DNA of 20,128 bases from a virus: the IMG/VR virus record IMGVR_UViG_3300026347_000001, positions 1 to 20,128 of that record. One strand, written 5' to 3'. A model generated the notes under the pieces. That model was not told the DNA's origin. It ran no database searches and saw only the letters and a list, made by a program, of their open reading frames with translations. Made by a program: the position numbers and the translations under genes. Shown one piece after another: positions 8,514-18,286 of this stretch (position 1 is its first letter; each line of letters opens with the position of its first letter).

Positions 8514-8731
8514 TCCTCGTACCGCCACACGTTGGTGATGGTGACGCCGACGTCGGTGGTCGCGTACCCGAGCGACTTGGCCACCGACTCGATGATCTCC
8601 TTGACGTGCTCCGGGGCGAAGGTGCACGGGGAGCCGTTCCGCGCCGGCGTGAAGTCAGCCACGTGACCGTGGCCGGATGTCCGCCCCCTGACGCTGAACG
8701 TGTAGCTGATCAGATACGTCGGCTGATTCAC
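8510..8731 (-). CDS. Hypothetical protein, 73 residues
   Basis: GTG 8731 start overlaps the repressor stop (GTGA). The protein starts MNQPTYLISYTFSVRGRTSGHGHVADFTP and ends with a helix EHVKEIIESVAKSLGYATTDVGVTITNVWRYEE: a small alpha/beta fold with two strands, helix, then strand. A similar pattern occurs in small actinophage proteins of unknown role. No catalytic motif is evident. Third coding frame of the repressor operon. Confidence 0.6.
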   Translation of the reverse strand: MNQPTYLISYTFSVRGRTSGHGHVADFTPARNGSPCTFAPEHVKEIIESVAKSLGYATTDVGVTITNVWRYEE

Positions 8732-9207
8732 TTTCCCAACTCCTTCTGGATCCTGTTGACGACTCCCCGTAGCCGGCGTACCTCGTCCGTCAGTCGCCTG
8801 TTGGCCGCCTTCACCTCGGTGAACATCTCTTGCTCAATACGCGCTAGCGGGTTCTCCGCCACCTCCTGCTCCGCCAGCACCAAGCGCCGGTACGCGGTGA
8901 TCAGGTCCCGGTTCGCTCCGTCGGCGGTCGGCAACAGCTGTGCCGTGCGCGCTCCGTTCACCACGGCCTCGCGCTCCTCGGCGGTGGCCGCCTGAGCACG
9001 CGTCATCAACACCACCTCCCATCCCGCCGCGTTCACCAGCGCGATGAACGTCGTCAGGTCGGGATTGACGCGCGCGTTCTCGTACTTACTGATCATCGAA
9101 CTGTCGACCCCGGCGTCCGCGCCGAGATCGAGCTGACTCTTCCCGGTGATCGCTCTGATCTCGGCGATACACTGGCCCGCCAGTGCGGCGAGACGCACCC
9201 TGATCAC
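8728..9207 (-). CDS. XRE-family repressor with C-terminal coiled coil
   Basis: 159 residues. GTG 9207 overlaps the stop of a 9-codon leader (GTGA); another GTG at 9198 is possible. Residues 12-60 are a classical XRE/Cro helix-turn-helix: AEIRAITGKSQLDLGADAGVDSSMISKYENARVNPDLTTFIALVNAAGWEV. Residues 75-155 are charged and helical (AYRRLVLAEQEVAENPLARIEQEMFTEVKAANRRLTDEVRRLRGVVNRIQKEL), probably a dimerising coiled coil. Its promoter contains one of the dispersed 18-bp operators, so it is the obvious candidate to bind all of them and regulate itself. No peptidase domain for SOS cleavage is present. Repressor role inferred. Confidence 0.75.
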   Translation of the reverse strand: MIRVRLAALAGQCIAEIRAITGKSQLDLGADAGVDSSMISKYENARVNPDLTTFIALVNAAGWEVVLMTRAQAATAEEREAVVNGARTAQLLPTADGANRDLITAYRRLVLAEQEVAENPLARIEQEMFTEVKAANRRLTDEVRRLRGVVNRIQKELGK

Positions 9208-9242: not shown

Positions 9243-9260
9243 TTACCATCTTCTTGGTAA
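9243..9260 (-). promoter_or_regulatory. Operator/promoter 1 (repressor operon)
   Basis: On the coding (-) strand TTACCA-AGAAGA-TGGTAA, a perfect 6-6-6 dyad. The right arm continues as TGGTAAGCT, an extended -10 (TGN-TANNNT). The leader ATG follows after 6 nt. Confidence 0.7.
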
Positions 9261-9505: not shown

Positions 9506-9925
9506 TCAACGCCTGATCTCAACTACCTGAGTGACCTGGACGGAGGGGCCGTTGACGGCGCGCCGCGTCATCACCGTAGCGGCGGCCAGCACCGCGCACG
9601 CCAGCACGAACATCACCGCAGGAAGCGCAGTGATCACCTCGATCACGAGGATCACGAGCAGCGCCATCCCGGTGAGCGACAGCCCGACGGCGATGATCCC
9701 CTTCGCCCACGCGGGATACGGCTCGGGCAGTTCGCGAAGCAGGCTCACCTTCACCCCGTACCCGCCGCCGGCGCGCCTGTGGAACCGGGAGACCGGCGAC
9801 GCCGCATAGATGTAGCCGCGGCGCTGAAGCCGCTTCAACTGTCGAAGCACCGCGGCCTCGCTCCGCCCGCGCAACACGGTCACGCCGATGGGGCGGACCC
9901 CCTGACTCACCTCGATCTCACGCAC
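9506..9925 (-). CDS. Hypothetical membrane protein, two spans
   Basis: 139 residues from GTG 9925 with a strong ribosome site GGGAGGA just upstream. The first ~70 residues are soluble and basic (RGRSEAAVLRQLKRLQRRGYIYAASPVSRFHRRAGGGYGVKVSLL), with a helix-turn pattern. Residues ~75-118 hold two hydrophobic spans (GIIAVGLSLTGMALLVILVI and PAVMFVLACAVLAAATVM). The C-terminus ends SVQVTQVVEIRR. The start overlaps the WhiB-like gene by 8 bases, so both are on one transcript. Not recognised; possibly a membrane-tethered nucleic-acid or host-interaction protein. Confidence 0.65.
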   Translation of the reverse strand: MREIEVSQGVRPIGVTVLRGRSEAAVLRQLKRLQRRGYIYAASPVSRFHRRAGGGYGVKVSLLRELPEPYPAWAKGIIAVGLSLTGMALLVILVIEVITALPAVMFVLACAVLAAATVMTRRAVNGPSVQVTQVVEIRR

Positions 9926-10172
9926 GATTCCTCCCAGATTGGATCCTGCCGTCGATCAACCACTCCCCGCCGAACACGCCGTTAGCGCGGTGCTCGACGC
10001 CCCACGGGAGACACACGTCCTTCAGCGGGCAGTACGAACAGATCGTGGCGGCGCGACGGCGCGCCCGCTGGCCGTCGATGTTGCGCGCCGTCTCCGTGAA
10101 GTCGTCCGGCCTGCGCGTCGTGGGGCACAGAGCCTGCCCACTCATCGCGAAAGCGGGAATCGCCTCAGCCAT
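9918..10172 (-). CDS. WhiB-like (Wbl) Fe-S transcription regulator
   Basis: 84 residues from ATG 10172 (TGATG overlap with the GIY-YIG gene); ATG 10184 is the alternative and adds four residues. Four cysteines C16, C45-x2-C48 and C54 match the Wbl cluster ligands (C...CxxC...C), followed by G65-V-F-G-G-E-W, a version of the conserved G-[IV]-W-G-G turn with Phe in place of Trp. The tail RNRA is short and basic, suiting DNA contact. Wbl proteins bind a 4Fe-4S cluster and the main sigma factor in actinobacteria; phage copies can interfere with host WhiB control. This supports an actinobacterial host. Confidence 0.8.
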   Translation of the reverse strand: MAEAIPAFAMSGQALCPTTRRPDDFTETARNIDGQRARRRAATICSYCPLKDVCLPWGVEHRANGVFGGEWLIDGRIQSGRNRA

Positions 10173-10717
10173 CACCGCAGCCATGAGGTCACCGCCGCCA
10201 CCACCAGGAGTGCCACAGTCGCACCGTGCGCGGGACGCGCGTTCGGCGAAAGTCCGAGCCGGGTGCGGTCACGGAAGGCGCGCTGTCGCTTCGCTGCGCT
10301 GAGCGGGATCCGCCGGGGATTCCAGCCGTTCTTCGCATGGTTGTACGCCGGCGCGAGCACCATGATCAGCAGCGTCTCGACAGCCCGCAGCAACGGCTTC
10401 CATCGCGGCAGAGGGATCCGGAACGCCACCCGCGGCGACAGGTCCGCCCACGGCTGCGCAGCCTTCCCGTACCGGCCGCCGCCGTCGATGTGTTCGCCGT
10501 GCCGGTCCTTGAAGCTGAACGTCTCCCCTACGTAGGCGAAGTGCCTTCCGGACAGGAGCAGGCACGCCAGCCCGAACCACCACGGGATATCCGTCGGCAC
10601 CAGCGCGAGACTCGTTCCCGCTGCGGCGGCAGCGGCTGCGTAGTCGGGGATGTTCAGCCTGCCGATCAGGCTCGCCGGCTTACGCGTGCGGTAGACGTAG
10701 ACGCCTCCACCCTTCAC
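10172..10717 (-). CDS. Membrane GIY-YIG nuclease-like protein
   Basis: 181 residues, GTG 10717 with AGGGGA upstream and GTGA overlap. Residues G5-V-Y7 and Y62-V-G64 match the two short motifs of GIY-YIG nucleases, followed by FKDRHGEH (R72, H76), a helix with E114 (LLRAVETLLIMVLAPAYN) and N126, matching catalytic Arg, metal-binding Glu and late Asn. Normally GIY and YIG are ~10 residues apart; here 54 residues separate them and hold a hydrophobic insert (YAAAAAAAGTSLALVPTDIPWWFGLACLLL). A third hydrophobic stretch (ATVALLVVAAVTSWL) ends the protein. A membrane-associated nuclease is inferred. It lies between a Zn-finger protein and WhiB in one operon. Confidence 0.6.
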   Translation of the reverse strand: MKGGGVYVYRTRKPASLIGRLNIPDYAAAAAAAGTSLALVPTDIPWWFGLACLLLSGRHFAYVGETFSFKDRHGEHIDGGGRYGKAAQPWADLSPRVAFRIPLPRWKPLLRAVETLLIMVLAPAYNHAKNGWNPRRIPLSAAKRQRAFRDRTRLGLSPNARPAHGATVALLVVAAVTSWLR

Positions 10718-10881
10718 TTTCGGTCCCCTTTCGTCAGGTGATATCGGTCGCAGAACGCGCACCGATAGATCTTGTGGCTGCCCTTGGCGTGCGCATATCG
10801 GCGCAGTGCAGCGCGCGCCTCTTGCCGGGACGCGTACATGACCTTTCCGCCCGGTCCGTTGCATCTCTCCTGCTCAAACAC
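10714..10881 (-). CDS. Small zinc-finger-like protein, 55 residues
   Basis: GTG 10881 start. Product begins MFEQERCNGPGGKVMYASRQ and ends KIYRCAFCDRYHLTKGDRK. C7, C41 and C44 with H49 can form a zinc site, with a basic helix EARAALRRYAHAKG between. The CxxC-x4-H-L-T end is common in small actinophage zinc proteins. The GTG sits exactly 6 nt after TGGTAATGT, matching the start-site spacing in the other repeat promoters, which supports this start. First gene of the operon to 9506; its stop overlaps the next start (GTGA). Confidence 0.65.
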   Translation of the reverse strand: MFEQERCNGPGGKVMYASRQEARAALRRYAHAKGSHKIYRCAFCDRYHLTKGDRK

Positions 10882-10890
10882 ACCACAACA

Positions 10891-10908
10891 TTACCACTGT
10901 TTTGGTGA
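10891..10908. promoter_or_regulatory. Operator 3, shared by divergent promoters
   Basis: + strand TTACCA-CTGTTT-TGGTGA. On the - strand the right arm gives TGGTAATGT, then 6 nt to GTG 10881. On the + strand it gives TGGTGAGATACT; GATACT (10909-10914) is 6 nt from ATG 10921. One dyad thus lies between two back-to-back start sites. Confidence 0.7.
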
Positions 10909-10920
10909 GATACTAGTGTG

Positions 10921-12861
10921 ATGGAGCAGAACAACAACGGGCTCGCGCCTACCATCGCCAGCTTCCGCCTCAGATGGTGGACCCCCCGCGGTGCCACCTA
11001 CCTCGCTGTTCGTACCGGGTGGCGGTACTTCGTCACCGGACGCGAGATCCGCGGTAACGGTGACAACGCCACCTTCTGGCACGACGCCACCAGAGATCAC
11101 CGCGGCAATCCCGTGGAGAAGCTCTCCCGGGCACGCTGGCGTCGCGTCGCCCGGCGATGGGTGATTGCCGGCGTCCCCGCGATCATGGCCGGGATCGACG
11201 GCGCGGCCGGCGTCACGTCGGCGGGATGGCAGGCACTCGGCCAGACGCCGCCGGCGTGGGCGCAGCTCCCGTACGGGACGGCGCTGCTCGCCTACGTCTG
11301 CGTGGTAGCCGGCGTCTCCGCCACCGTGGCGGCACCGATCGTCGCCGCCTGGTGGCGCACCCGGCACATCCGCTCCACCTACGTCTACCCCGCCGCGGCG
11401 ATCCTCGCGAAGGTCACCGGCGTCAAGGTCGGCAAGCGCGACGCGCTCAGCATGATCGAGTTGCCGTCGAACTTCGGGGAACCGTCCGATAGCGAACCCG
11501 AGCCCATCCGCGTGTACGTGCCGGACGGCATCGTCCTCGACACCGCCTCGAAAAAGCGCATCGCGGACGCCGTCGGATCCCGTCTCGGCGCGCCCGAGCC
11601 CGTGGCGCGGTGGACGGAGTCCGGCGTCGTGCGCCGGTACGTGGAGCTGCTCCCGCAGTCCGTGCCCGACTCGATCCCGTCGATCGAGCACCTGATGCCC
11701 GAGCTGCTAGAGACCACCATGGGTAACCCGATGGTGGGAGTCATGAAGGGTCGGCGGATCTCCCGGATCGACATGCACAACGACTCGCCCCACACCCTGG
11801 GGAGCGCGGGCAGCGGCGCGGGCAAGAGCACCTTGTACAAGCTGATCGCCATGCAGCGTCTGCGTCTCGGTGCCTACGCGGTGATCCTCGACTTCAAGAA
11901 ATGGTCGCATCTGCGGTGGGCCGGCCGCCTCCCCGCCGGGCGCGTTGCCATGGAGGACACGGTCGCCGGCATCCACGACATGCTGATCAAGGTTCTCGAC
12001 GAACTCATCTGGCGCAAGTCCTTCAATCTCGATCAGGAGGACGAACTCGCGGCCCTCCCCGTCCTGGACGTTTACGTGGAGGAGATCAACACGCTGATGG
12101 CGCTGCTGGTCTCCTACTGGCAGTCCGAGCGTGCCCGGATCAGGCAGGAGGCGCGTACCGCCCTGCGCCGGATCAAGGAGACCGCGAAGCGCTCCGGTGA
12201 CCCCGACTGGTACGCCGCGGAGATCGAGGAAGCGGAGGACGAACTCGCCCGCGCGAACGGCCTGCCGGTCACGTCCCCTGCCGTCCAGGCGATCCGGTTC
12301 GGGGTCAATCTCGGACGCGAGTTCAAAGTCCACTTCCACTTCATCGGCCAGTCCGTCTCCGCTCAGGCCGCGGGTGGACGTGACACCCGTGAGTCCTTCC
12401 AGACGCGCCTACTCGCCCGCTGGAACGAGAAGACGTGGAAGATGCTCGCGGACGGAATCCCGTTCGTCTCCTGTCCGTCCGGAGACGTAGGCATCTGGGC
12501 TCACGTCCATCAGGGGACGTATGAGATCGTCCGCGTCCCGTACGTCCCGGACGAATTCGCCGTGCGATACGTCCTCGCCGGAGAGCGTCCGTCCATGCCG
12601 ATGTTCCACGGGGACGTTCGTCCGTCCATGGACGCGTCCTCCCATCCGTCCATCGCGTCCACCGAGCCGCTCTCGAAGATCCTGGACGTACTACCCGCGA
12701 AGAAGGACGGATCCCGGATCACCCTCAAGGCCCTGCGTCTCGCGTCCGGTAGGGACGGATTCCCGGTGCCCACCAATACGGTGACCGCCGGCCATGCTGC
12801 TCTGTACGACGTCGACGAGGTACTCGCGTGGTTCCGGAGCAGGGAAGGCTTGACCGCCTGA
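10921..12861 (+). CDS. FtsK/SpoIIIE-type DNA translocase (TraB-like)
   Basis: 646 residues from ATG 10921 (a GTG sits at 10918; ATG fits the leaderless spacing). Two hydrophobic spans at about 80-105 and 120-145 anchor it to the membrane. The ATPase core has Walker A G294-SAGSGAGKST and Walker B VLDVYVEEIN (about 381-390), then HFHFIGQSVSAQAAGGRDTRESFQTRLLARW. Such proteins pump double-stranded DNA; in Streptomyces plasmids the TraB/Tra relative alone drives mycelial DNA transfer. The C-terminus (about 590-646, TLKALRLASGRDGFPVPTNT, then ALYDVDEVLAWFRSREG) resembles an excisionase/MerR-type winged helix, not the usual FtsK gamma. A Spd-like gene is next door on the other strand. Confidence 0.8.
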   Translation: MEQNNNGLAPTIASFRLRWWTPRGATYLAVRTGWRYFVTGREIRGNGDNATFWHDATRDHRGNPVEKLSRARWRRVARRWVIAGVPAIMAGIDGAAGVTSAGWQALGQTPPAWAQLPYGTALLAYVCVVAGVSATVAAPIVAAWWRTRHIRSTYVYPAAAILAKVTGVKVGKRDALSMIELPSNFGEPSDSEPEPIRVYVPDGIVLDTASKKRIADAVGSRLGAPEPVARWTESGVVRRYVELLPQSVPDSIPSIEHLMPELLETTMGNPMVGVMKGRRISRIDMHNDSPHTLGSAGSGAGKSTLYKLIAMQRLRLGAYAVILDFKKWSHLRWAGRLPAGRVAMEDTVAGIHDMLIKVLDELIWRKSFNLDQEDELAALPVLDVYVEEINTLMALLVSYWQSERARIRQEARTALRRIKETAKRSGDPDWYAAEIEEAEDELARANGLPVTSPAVQAIRFGVNLGREFKVHFHFIGQSVSAQAAGGRDTRESFQTRLLARWNEKTWKMLADGIPFVSCPSGDVGIWAHVHQGTYEIVRVPYVPDEFAVRYVLAGERPSMPMFHGDVRPSMDASSHPSIASTEPLSKILDVLPAKKDGSRITLKALRLASGRDGFPVPTNTVTAGHAALYDVDEVLAWFRSREGLTA

Positions 12862-12912: not shown

Positions 12913-13143
12913 TCAGTCGTCTTCTGAGGTACCTCGCTCCCGTCTGCGGCGTAGCTCGTACGCCGCCTGCGCCATCGCTGCCCGCTCCGGGGTGTTCACC
13001 CTGGCACAGCACCCGGGACCGTAGTCCAGCCTGCCGGAGCAGGGGCAGAACGCCGGGTGGCAGCGTCCGTACTTGGCCTCGTGGCAACGGCAGGGGTATT
13101 CGTCCTTGAGACGCGTCCCCGCGATCAGCCATACGTCCTTCAC
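12913..13143 (-). CDS. Cysteine-rich small protein, putative zinc binder
   Basis: 76 residues from GTG 13143 overlapping the stop of the DUF2637 gene (GTGA), so translation is coupled. The core reads YPCRCHEAKYGRCHPAFCPCSGRLDYGPGCCARV with cysteines 18, 20, 28, 33, 35, 45 and 46 plus His21 and His29, enough for two zinc sites. The C-terminus is a basic helix AAMAQAAYELRRRRERG with an acidic tail. Longer in-frame extension upstream is unlikely because it lies inside the neighbour. Not recognised; expressed with the Spd-like protein. Confidence 0.65.
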   Translation of the reverse strand: MKDVWLIAGTRLKDEYPCRCHEAKYGRCHPAFCPCSGRLDYGPGCCARVNTPERAAMAQAAYELRRRRERGTSEDD

Positions 13144-13853
13144 CGTTCGTCCTTTCCGATCGCGTCCCGGACGCGTCCAGCGTGAAGGACGGATACCCCG
13201 GACGTGGACGCGACCTCTGCGTCCGTCCGTCCGTCCTGGATGAGACGTACCGCGCGCTTCGTCCTCTGCCACGGCTTCGCGGTCAGTCCGTCCACCATCT
13301 CGAGTACGTCCGAGTCCGTCCGTCCGTCCATCAGAAGGCGGACCGCCTTCTCCACGTCCCATGCCGCCGCGCGTCCGCGCGTCCCGGCGTTCGTCCGCGG
13401 CTTCGGCGCGGGAACCGTCCGCGGCTTAGGTTTCGGCGCGAGCGGGACGATCGGCAGCATCTCCGGGTACACCCGGGTCGTCTTCTCGACCACCTTCTCC
13501 GGTACGTCCTTCGTCCGCCCCGTCGCCTCGATCAGGAAGGACGCGAACATGCACACCGGCATGCTGGACGCGATCAGCCGTGCGTCCATGGCCACTGCCC
13601 CTTCCGCGTCCAGGTTGAAGGCGAGGGAGTAGAACGCTCCGATCAACAGCGCCACCAGCCCGGCGAAGCGTCGCCCCGACTGGACGGACCGGATGCCCAC
13701 GTAGATCAGGCCGTCGATCCCGATGGGGTAGACGGGGCTGATCCACCACGGGTTGCTCTCGCTCACCACGGTCATGATGTGCCCGGCGGACGCGATGAAC
13801 GCCGCACCGGCCACGATCCCGGCGATCGCCTCGCTCTTCACGTTGACCTTCAT
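13140..13853 (-). CDS. DUF2637 (Spd-like) membrane protein with C-terminal HTH repeats
   Basis: 237 residues, ATG 13853. Four hydrophobic spans lie at about 9-29, 36-56, 62-82 and 92-110; the P-V-Y-P-I-G-I-D-G-L-I-Y segment in span 2 is the mark of DUF2637 proteins, common on Streptomyces plasmids near tra and spd (spread) genes. A Pro/Lys-rich linker (PLAPKPKPRTVPAPKPR) leads to two similar helix-turn units, AVRLLMDGRTDSDVLEMVDG and AVRLIQDGRTDAEVASTSG, likely DNA-binding. Probably helps DNA transfer or partner binding with the adjacent FtsK/TraB-like protein. Driven by operator 4 with a leader hairpin that hides its ribosome site. Confidence 0.75.
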   Translation of the reverse strand: MKVNVKSEAIAGIVAGAAFIASAGHIMTVVSESNPWWISPVYPIGIDGLIYVGIRSVQSGRRFAGLVALLIGAFYSLAFNLDAEGAVAMDARLIASSMPVCMFASFLIEATGRTKDVPEKVVEKTTRVYPEMLPIVPLAPKPKPRTVPAPKPRTNAGTRGRAAAWDVEKAVRLLMDGRTDSDVLEMVDGLTAKPWQRTKRAVRLIQDGRTDAEVASTSGVSVLHAGRVRDAIGKDER

Positions 13854-14329: not shown

Positions 14330-14496
14330 CACTTCTCCCTCGTGATCTCGTCGATCTTCCGGTCGACGATGATGAAGCAGGCGGTCGCCCAGACGCCCAC
14401 CGAGATAACCGCGACGTAGCCGAACCAGTCGATCCACAGACTCGCCACCCCGGTGGCGCCGGCGACCGCTCCCGCGATGCTCCTCAGCGCGTTCAT
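14329..14496 (-). CDS. Small membrane protein, 55 residues
   Basis: ATG 14496 overlaps the stop of the beta-solenoid gene (ATGA), and its own stop overlaps the next start (TGATG). The product MNALRSIAGAVAGATGVASL, WIDWFGYVAVISVGVWATACFIIV, DRKIDEITREK has two hydrophobic segments and a charged helical end. Tight overlaps on both sides support it as real. Function unknown; an inner-membrane anchor for the operon's products or a superinfection factor is possible. Confidence 0.6.
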   Translation of the reverse strand: MNALRSIAGAVAGATGVASLWIDWFGYVAVISVGVWATACFIIVDRKIDEITREK

Positions 14497-14834
14497 CGGT
14501 GGTCCACCACCGTGGCGTTGTGGCGCGCGCTAACCGTGGTGCATCCGTACACGTGCACAGTGGCGTCGTCGGATGCCCATACCATGGTGTCATCGAATGC
14601 CAACACCCTGACATTGCCGTACGCGTACACCTTGGAGTTGCCGCACGCGTACACCGCGGAGTTGCCATACGCTCTCACCGTGGAGTTGCCGTGCGCGTAC
14701 ACCGTGGCGTCGCCGTGCGCGTACACCGTGGCGTAGCCGGACACCACGAAAGCGCCCGCCTTGACTCTGACGGCGTAGCCGGCCTTGACTGCCTCGTTCA
14801 TCTCCTGCTGCGTGGTAACCGTCTTCATCTCCAT
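14493..14834 (-). CDS. Octapeptide-repeat beta-solenoid protein
   Basis: 113 residues from ATG 14834, which lies 6 nt after the -10 box; TTG 14840 is an unlikely alternative. After a helical start (MEMKTVTTQQEMNEAVKAGYAV) about ten copies of an 8-residue unit follow: ATVYAHGD, ATVYAHGN, STVRAYGN, SAVYACGN, SKVYAYGN and so on, with V at position 3, A at 5 and G-[ND] at the turn. Regular V-x-A-x-G-N spacing predicts a narrow beta-helix, similar to pentapeptide or hexapeptide solenoids, which can mimic DNA or act as surface adhesins. Its N-terminus MEMKT is shared with neighbours in other cassettes. Confidence 0.65.
   Translation of the reverse strand: MEMKTVTTQQEMNEAVKAGYAVRVKAGAFVVSGYATVYAHGDATVYAHGNSTVRAYGNSAVYACGNSKVYAYGNVRVLAFDDTMVWASDDATVHVYGCTTVSARHNATVVDHR
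14526..14752 (-). repeat. 24-bp degenerate tandem repeat in the solenoid gene
   Basis: The unit, on the + strand about GCGTACACCGTGGAGTTGCCGT, recurs every 24 bp with drift, each copy coding one octapeptide. The best-matching copies lie at 14618-14748. Divergence grows toward the gene 3' end (lower coordinates), as if new copies were added near the N-terminal side. Confidence 0.65.
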
Positions 14835-14843
14835 GACCAAAGC

Positions 14844-14861
14844 TTACCACAGTCTTGGTAA
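14844..14861 (-). promoter_or_regulatory. Operator/promoter 5
   Basis: On the - strand TTACCA-AGACTG-TGGTAA then GCT (extended -10), then 6 nt and ATG 14834. Perfect dyad arms. A terminator with a TTTCTTTC tail abuts it upstream. Confidence 0.75.
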
Positions 14862-14870
14862 GAAAGAAAG

Positions 14871-14893
14871 GCCCCGACTGCATGGCCGGGGTC
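14871..14893 (-). terminator. Terminator upstream of operator 5
   Basis: CCCCG (14872-14876) pairs with CGGGG (14887-14891), with partial further pairing inside. On the - strand CCTTTCTTTC follows, running straight into operator 5. It would end the 32-codon unit from 15012. A TTTT on the + strand side suggests two-way use. Confidence 0.6.
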
Positions 14894-15563: not shown

Positions 15564-15649
15564 CAGCCCACCGCCCCGGCGAGGCGAGAGGTCCTGGCGC
15601 GGCGGCGTGCCTCCGGCGTGTACTTGGTGTAACCCGTCATCATCTCCAT
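15563..15649 (-). CDS. 28-residue leader-type peptide with duplicated N-terminus
   Basis: ATG 15649, exactly 6 nt after the operator 6 -10 box. Product MEMMTGYTKYTPEARRRART, SRLAGAVG. The first 13 residues nearly match those of the next cassette's protein (MEMKTGYTKYTPE), after which the two part. It looks like a promoter plus N-terminus copy fused to new sequence; its stop overlaps the 135-residue gene start. Confidence 0.55.
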   Translation of the reverse strand: MEMMTGYTKYTPEARRRARTSRLAGAVG

Positions 15650-15694
15650 GACCAAAGCTTACCACAGTCTTGGTAAGAAAGAAAGCCCCGGCTG
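15611..15694 (-). repeat. ~84-bp direct repeat, copy A
   Basis: Nearly identical to 15991-16074. It spans the first 13 codons of the cassette gene, the operator/promoter and the start of the adjoining terminator. A shorter match (about 55 bp) occurs at 14821-14880. Confidence 0.75.
15659..15676 (-). promoter_or_regulatory. Operator/promoter 6
   Basis: On the - strand TTACCA-AGACTG-TGGTAA then GCT; ATG 15649 follows the -10 after 6 nt. Identical to operator 5. Confidence 0.75.
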
Positions 15695-15714: not shown

Positions 15715-16029
15715 TCACCTGACCGAGAAACCGTGAGCGTCGCGCCGCTCGGTGTCCTCGGTGAGCGCCAGCGCGTGAAGTTCGTCGACGCTCTTGACGC
15801 GCCACCCGAGGGCGATGGCGACCTCACGGCCGAGAGCAGTCCAGCGGTTGTCACTGTGGACAAGGCCGCGCCGCACCAGCGCTTCGCGGGTGCGGTTGCC
15901 GGCCCGACGGATGATCGAGGCGCTCCCCTCGTTGTACGCCCCGTTGAGAAGGACCACCTGCATCGAGTTGCTGATGGTCTTGGCGAACATCTCCGGCGTG
16001 TACTTGGTGTAACCCGTCTTCATCTCCAT
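15715..16029 (-). CDS. Small winged-helix-like protein, 104 residues
   Basis: ATG 16029, 6 nt after the -10 box of operator 7. Starts MEMKTGYTKYTPEMFAKTISNSMQVVLLNGAYNEGSASI, then IRRAGNRTREALVRRGLVHSDNRWTALGREVAIALGW. The R-x-A-L-x-x-R-G-L-V ... W-T-x-L-G-x-x-V-A segment is a common compact winged-helix pattern for DNA binding in small phage proteins. C-terminal tail VDELHALALTEDTERRDAHGFSVR is hydrophilic. Single-gene unit with its own promoter and terminator. Role likely regulatory, by pattern only. Confidence 0.65.
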   Translation of the reverse strand: MEMKTGYTKYTPEMFAKTISNSMQVVLLNGAYNEGSASIIRRAGNRTREALVRRGLVHSDNRWTALGREVAIALGWRVKSVDELHALALTEDTERRDAHGFSVR

Positions 16030-16074
16030 GACCTCAGCTTACCACAGTTTTAGTAAGAAAGAAAACCCCCGGCT
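15991..16074 (-). repeat. ~84-bp direct repeat, copy B
   Basis: Partner of 15611-15694; the differences are a few substitutions and one indel. The copies are in the same orientation, 380 bp apart. Confidence 0.75.
16039..16056 (-). promoter_or_regulatory. Operator/promoter 7
   Basis: On the - strand TTACTA-AAACTG-TGGTAA then GCT; ATG 16029 after 6 nt. The left arm has T for C at position 5. Confidence 0.72.
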
Positions 16075-18052: not shown

Positions 18053-18286
18053 CTGTTGCGATACGTGGCGAGGGCAGGGTTTGCGCCTGCATCTCCGGGA
18101 GCAGTACCCGGTGTCCTGTCTACCGCTTCGAGCGCTCTCCGCAGCTGCTTAGACGACCTCTCCTTGCCCGTCTCTCCGGGCCGTCGCGCCTCTATCAGGG
18201 CGTTCTCGCCGGTTTCCTTCGCGTACCCCGACATCGGTTCCTGCCGGGGCTTAGCCTGCGTGTCTACCGGTAACCACTTTCGGCTG

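Follow-up and report, generated by a model that had tools for sequence, protein, structure and literature searches.

What would a phage do with a small nuclease that is probably held at the membrane? The question is raised by the window, by which we mean the whole stretch of DNA analysed, an entire IMG/VR viral entry of 20128 bases from an uncultured phage, with tail genes. On its minus strand, at 10172..10717, lies a gene for a protein of 181 aa with a GTG start and a stop codon at 10172-10174. A sequence-only reading had placed this gene correctly, without mention of the strand, and had described a membrane-held GIY-YIG nuclease with an unusual insert. Its details held: the tyrosines of the GVY (residues 5-7) and YVG (residues 62-64) motifs have 54 residues between them, hydrophobic stretches are found twice between the motifs and once at the C-terminus, and the Arg, His, Glu and Asn said to be retained are R72, H76, E114 and N126. 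The phage host is probably an actinobacterium, since all 158 phage records matching the window exonuclease carry the name of an actinobacterial genus.

By itself, the window protein gave no relevant match in Pfam, PHROGs or NCBIfam. Relatives were gathered through the exonuclease gene, the nuclease and the translocase, which gave an aligned family of 25 members. Scanning viral contigs with a single nuclease or pump sequence returned no relatives; the exonuclease gene yielded the first two. The Pfam GIY-YIG profile (PF01541) stayed below its cut-off throughout the members scanned, with a best E-value of 0.0026 (1 of 3 members, or 1 of 6 in a wider scan) and values of 0.0046 and 0.09 in 2 of 10 proteins. 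Divergence together with the insert can explain such scores. Thirteen columns are invariant in 25/25 members, including Y7, Y62, G64, P123, Y125 and the active-site positions R72 and H76 (10490..10504, minus strand), with a spacing of 4, and E114 and N126 (10340..10378, minus strand), with a spacing of 12. The available text of PMC1952068 gives R.Eco29kI the same spacings (R104/H108 and E142/N154).

Seven sequences gave an AlphaFold model too poor to interpret (pLDDT 50.7). With 25 sequences, the pLDDT rose to 84.3 and the GIY-YIG sheet was present. Strand 1 with GVY (residues 5-12, 10682..10705) and strand 2 with YVG (residues 58-66, 10520..10546), both encoded on the minus strand, lie next to each other in the model, so the outcome that the sequence-only reading had named as refuting it did not occur. 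The modelled order is strand 5-12, helices 25-42 and 47-55, strand 58-66, helix 69-77, strand 96-102, helix 107-121 and the C-terminal helix 160-180. VIA-align of the model gave 7 entries, the best being the N-terminal GIY-YIG domain of UvrC (1yd6, Z 8.9, 81 residues aligned), followed by I-TevI (Z 8.3 and 8.1), a plant Grx N-terminal domain (Z 6.7), which we take to be GIY-YIG-like, and three R.Eco29kI entries (Z 5.8-6.1). UvrC is a repair enzyme of several domains and is not known to have membrane parts. Foldseek also placed UvrC and I-TevI at ranks 1-6, but with E-values of 2.7-6.4. In a search of the PDB with the family profile, the sole match up to E 10 was again UvrC (E 0.26), over YVG...R...E...P.YN. 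Because these modest lines (alignment, model, structure matches and profile) add up, we regard the GIY-YIG fold as established. The window ORF is a diverged GIY-YIG nuclease in which the catalytic residues are kept, and cleavage is predicted from sequence and model. Relatives of the nuclease were not found in named phages (queries: window, L005 and L017 proteins), in plasmids (queries: window and L017 proteins) or, at the sensitivity of a pattern scan, in genome contigs.

The sequence-only reading had made the insert the distinctive trait of this protein. The hydrophobic helical hairpin (10556..10645, minus strand, about residues 25-54) is real enough in the model, where its block has a pLDDT of about 69-78. 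As a family-defining trait it was rejected, since only 4 of 25 members carry it, namely the window protein and three relatives (L003, L004 and L008) that share it at 45-49% identity. The gap from GIY to YIG, measured in 22 members, is 13-15 residues in 12, 20 in 6 and 50-57 in 4. Since L005, L009 and L010 are 57-58% identical to the window protein over the aligned columns and yet have no insert, it is a discrete addition to the loop that joins strand 1 to strand 2. On the tree its carriers need 2 changes, and a single origin could still apply. Between L003 and L004 the insert has a dN/dS of about 0.40 (whole gene 0.36) and is therefore under selection as protein. Three of the four carriers have no charged residue in it. 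Since the modelled helices are only 18 and 9 residues long, the second too short to span a bilayer, we favour a hairpin that dips into the membrane over two complete crossings. Judging by the insert, a compact nuclease can apparently accommodate a membrane-like hairpin between its two motif strands and still retain the active-site residues. In R.Eco29kI, too, residues 56-71 are inserted between the tyrosines of GIY and YIG; this protein is a restriction enzyme, its 16-residue insertion is shorter, and the available part of that paper (PMC1952068) ascribes no membrane role to it.

What remains of the earlier claim is a GIY-YIG nuclease with a probable tether, and the anchor would be mainly the C-terminal helix (residues 160-180, 10178..10240, minus strand). 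Of the 25 members, 24 have a hydrophobic C-terminal segment; the only exception is a fusion to the translocase. On sequence grounds, we therefore treat the insert as a lineage feature and predict the C-terminal segment to be the general anchor. The window protein is rich in Ala and Leu, so hydrophobic stretches are unremarkable in it alone: among 20000 shuffles, 6203 contained a 19-mer matching the hydrophobicity of the tail and 1310 contained a 29-mer matching that of the insert. Since shuffles so often equal these values, the membrane assignment relies on the conserved place of the segments. L005 and L010 form the closest pair without the insert, and between them the tail shows near-free evolution (dN 0.217, dS 0.231) with hydrophobicity kept. 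A membrane location of the nuclease is probable. Because the hairpin sits between strands 1 and 2, which neighbour each other in the fold, the nuclease core must in the model be confined to one side of the membrane. The stretch preceding the tail is rich in Arg and Lys, which suggests that this side is the cytoplasm. From the one-sided core and this stretch, we read the nuclease as facing the cytoplasm where the membrane pump opens.

The nuclease gene comes second in a tight operon. It is preceded by a small ORF of 55 residues (10714..10881, minus strand) with a CxxC...H motif (YRCAFCDRYHLTK), whose TGA overlaps the GTG of the nuclease (GTGA). This GTG start is backed by two relatives, which likewise have GTG immediately ahead of the same GGGVYVYRTRKP block. 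Relatives of the CxxC...H ORF adjoin the nuclease in five other loci (L003, L004, L005, L009 and L010). Overlapping the 3' end of the nuclease is a WhiB-like gene (9918..10184, minus strand; Pfam WhiB 6e-7). The last gene (9506..9925, minus strand) is small, with weak winged-helix matches and a hydrophobic stretch read by eye, and has relatives in L003 and L004. Divergent from the operon is a gene for an FtsK/Tra-like DNA translocase (10918..12861, plus strand), in which residues 80-99 and 114-145 form hydrophobic segments. Beyond this pump gene lies that of a DUF2637 protein (13140..13853, minus strand), whose Pfam match of 2.3e-4 is slightly under the cut-off.

The pairing with this pump goes beyond the earlier reading. 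We examined 26 viral records, and each has exactly one member of the nuclease family. In 25 of them the nuclease gene is beside an FtsK/Tra-like translocase gene, and in the other (L027) the two are fused; 23 arrangements are divergent and in 2 both genes share a strand, with 83-1129 bp between the two genes. Seventeen contigs (13 + 4) were first found by the translocase alone, and all 17 carried the nuclease. Since these were found via the translocase only, the linkage is not circular for them; the nuclease proteins of L052 and L053 are identical, which leaves 16 distinct ones. The fusion is a single ORF of 834 residues (L027, 4590-7094) with an FtsK_SpoIIIE match of 2.7e-5, just above the PF01580 cut-off, and a GIY-YIG match of E 0.09 that covers profile positions 3-78 of 78. 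Hydrophobic segments lie at 83-112 and 116-140 in its pump portion. The one tailless member thus has a fused pump with hydrophobic segments of its own. This fits the idea that the fused pump would provide the anchor in L027 and that elsewhere the tail would keep the nuclease near the pump. Together, the linkage and the fusion suggest that nuclease and pump handle DNA together at the membrane. One fusion in 26 may be due to chance, and the linkage may reflect shared regulation rather than contact.

The pump itself is of a plasmid type. Its profile matched the FtsK/SpoIIIE-type entry 4nh0 (2.1e-6) as well as 6o1w (1.2e-5), a DNA translocase coupling protein that we take to be TcpA. The window pump matched 47 plasmid records, 44 of them from Streptomyces, the best at about 1e-31. 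Among the plasmid matches listed (the best 25 of 47), identity was 26-30% and the annotations were pRL2-11, DUF87, FtsK or Tra. The partner gene is thus homologous to the FtsK-like pumps Tra/TraB and pRL2-11 of Streptomyces and to TcpA. Two predicted membrane segments, as in the window pump, are also described for TraA of pWTY27 in the available text of PMC3583192. At the threshold used, a hydrophobic segment was found in 17 of 19 pumps scanned, the exceptions being L003 and L026. PADLOC gave only generic ATPase matches for the pumps, namely mads_8 (6.6e-10 in L027, 2.9e-4 in the window pump) and SspH. The Streptomyces plasmid pumps differ in lacking the nuclease: none of the 8 plasmid loci examined (of 47) has the family nuclease or a GIY-YIG gene in the 5-6 kb pump flanks, so the nuclease is dispensable for this kind of pump. 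The Dagobah phage likewise has a distant relative of the pump and no family nuclease.

DUF2637 accompanies the pump in both settings. In plasmids pRL2 and pFRL3 the pump gene comes after a DUF2637 gene. With a limit of E 0.1, the domain was matched in 21 of 25 viral records (7 above the cut-off), compared with 4 of 14 control genomes (none above it). In all 21 records the best match is 0.25-4.8 kb from the nuclease, and it lies beyond the pump wherever positions were compared. Since the plasmid relatives of the pump come without the nuclease and DUF2637 is near the pump in both, these phages seem to carry a transfer module of plasmid type to which a nuclease has been added. The term DUF2637 was not found in the open-access papers screened for it. 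On the Streptomyces plasmid L042, a DUF3307 gene is also found near the pump.

From these results we propose, with moderate confidence, that the membrane-held GIY-YIG endonuclease is the cutting partner of the adjacent Tra/FtsK-type pump, its activity being predicted. The C-terminal helix would hold the nuclease on the cytoplasmic face of the membrane, and in the insert subgroup the membrane-dipping hairpin between strands 1 and 2 would serve as an extra anchor. The pump, if it acts on double-stranded DNA as a Tra/FtsK type, would engage DNA at the membrane, where the nuclease would come into contact with it and cut the engaged DNA. Tethering would also keep the nuclease away from the phage's own genomes in the cytoplasm.

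The purpose of such a pair is less clear. Superinfection exclusion, the suggestion of the sequence-only reading, is a tentative answer that we draw by analogy, about as likely as the two purposes taken up after it: the membrane-held nuclease may cut the DNA of rival phages or plasmids on entry, with the pump reeling it in or marking the site. The analogue is SNIPE (PD-lambda-1) of E. coli, which the available text of PMC13190303 describes as likewise a membrane-tethered GIY-YIG nuclease with a cytoplasmic catalytic domain. It cuts phage DNA during injection, and an E-to-A mutation abolishes defence (PMC13190303). A tether would avoid self-targeting here as it does in SNIPE, and HerA-nuclease pairs, in which an ATPase is likewise coupled to a nuclease, serve in defence (PMC11291478). 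However, SNIPE is a bacterial defence gene with an N-terminal anchor and DUF4041. The window nuclease is of phage origin, has a predicted C-terminal anchor, a possible hairpin insert and a pump partner, and at 181 aa contains no DUF4041, a domain that SNIPE needs and that Pfam did not find in the members scanned. PADLOC models matched the nuclease in 0 of 3 members scanned. Moreover, no integrase was found in 22 records, which may be fragments, so long-term prophage immunity is not indicated.

It is possible, if doubtful, that the pair serves hyphal spread. A Streptomyces-type Tra pump with the membrane protein DUF2637 would move phage DNA through septa into adjoining compartments, and the nuclease would process the DNA. 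The resemblance of the pump to Streptomyces plasmid transfer proteins and the DUF2637 genes, next to it in pRL2 and pFRL3 and found in the 21 viral records, speak for this purpose. Plasmid-phages with transfer functions also exist, an example being pZL12, cited among the references of PMC4487206. On the other hand, the nuclease is missing from all 8 plasmid loci, ParA/ParB was found in 0 of 26 records (which may be fragments), and the two short stretches examined held no convincing clt-like repeat array, with only short, scattered repeats after the pump gene. A bolder combination seems rather unlikely to us: phages of mycelial actinobacteria that have captured a Tra pump, DUF2637 and a dedicated nuclease would push processed phage DNA through septa into adjoining compartments or chop rival DNA at this same gate, and the hairpin would dock the nuclease on the pump.

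The regulation of the locus bears on another purpose. An 18-bp palindrome, TTACCA-6-TGGTAA, has 10 copies in the window when up to 3 mismatches are allowed; 1.51 would be expected, and 0 of 100 shuffles reach 10. Copies with 0-1 mismatch (18 bp each) start at 9243, 9485, 10891, 13887, 14844, 15659, 16039 and 16354, mostly just upstream of minus-strand genes. The one at 10891..10908, with 1 mismatch, lies in the divergent promoter region between the nuclease operon and the translocase. A similar palindromic site has 9 matches in L003, where the copy at 18141-18158 precedes the nuclease gene, and 8 in L004. The palindrome resembles a phage regulon operator, and the genes that bear it likely share a regulator. 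A candidate, judged by position, is the HTH_3 gene at 8728-9207, which has a copy directly upstream (9243-9260).

Such a shared site is what co-regulated phage genes would have, and since the operon palindrome recurs at about seven other sites in the window, it agrees with a role in DNA entry and host takeover. An early pump would draw in the remaining phage genome while the nuclease degrades host DNA at the membrane. The T5 A1/A2 pair is an analogue for DNA entry coupled to host DNA breakdown. The lack of integrases in the 22 records points the same way; with the ParA/ParB result, it mildly favours a lytic lifestyle for these phages. The membrane tether, however, is puzzling for a nuclease of host DNA, and we consider this purpose somewhat unlikely. 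There is a similarly small chance that the pair serves none of these three purposes. An ordinary free-standing or homing-type GIY-YIG endonuclease with a coincidental pump neighbour and an incidental tail is quite improbable: free-standing GIY-YIG genes are common in phages and many viral structure matches, weak ones, are to such genes, but the family is single-copy in 26/26 records, always adjacent or fused to the pump, with the tail in 24/25, and Pfam scans of members found no DNA-binding homing domain.

Membrane-held GIY-YIG nucleases are already known through SNIPE. HerA-nuclease pairs have another nuclease fold and are not known to have a membrane anchor. In the open-access papers and passages searched, we found no description of a GIY-YIG nuclease paired with an FtsK-like pump in phages. 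The word "transmembrane" is absent from the available text of a 2006 survey of GIY-YIG proteins (PMC1564403). The window nuclease would represent a second architecture after SNIPE for a membrane-held nuclease, on the phage side and linked to a pump. Little is understood of the way in which Tra-type pumps transport double-stranded DNA uncut. A natural pump-nuclease pair, once fused, makes the coupling of pumping and cutting directly testable.

Some other features of these loci were observed. ORFs that by eye resemble DNA cytosine methyltransferases lie a few kb from the nuclease in L005 (10742-11470) and L010 (5978-6649) and were unmatched in the other loci compared. A DUF3307-like membrane protein is encoded near the nuclease in L003 (19514-20026) and L004 (20102-20683). 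In the window, the gene at 14493-14840 consists of 8-residue repeats (VYAHGxxT-like), with DNA repeats spaced 24 bp, and possibly encodes a beta-solenoid. Three 79-bp direct repeats (14796-14874, 15611-15689 and 15991-16069), 81-92% identical to the reference copy, lie around gene starts and contain the palindrome.
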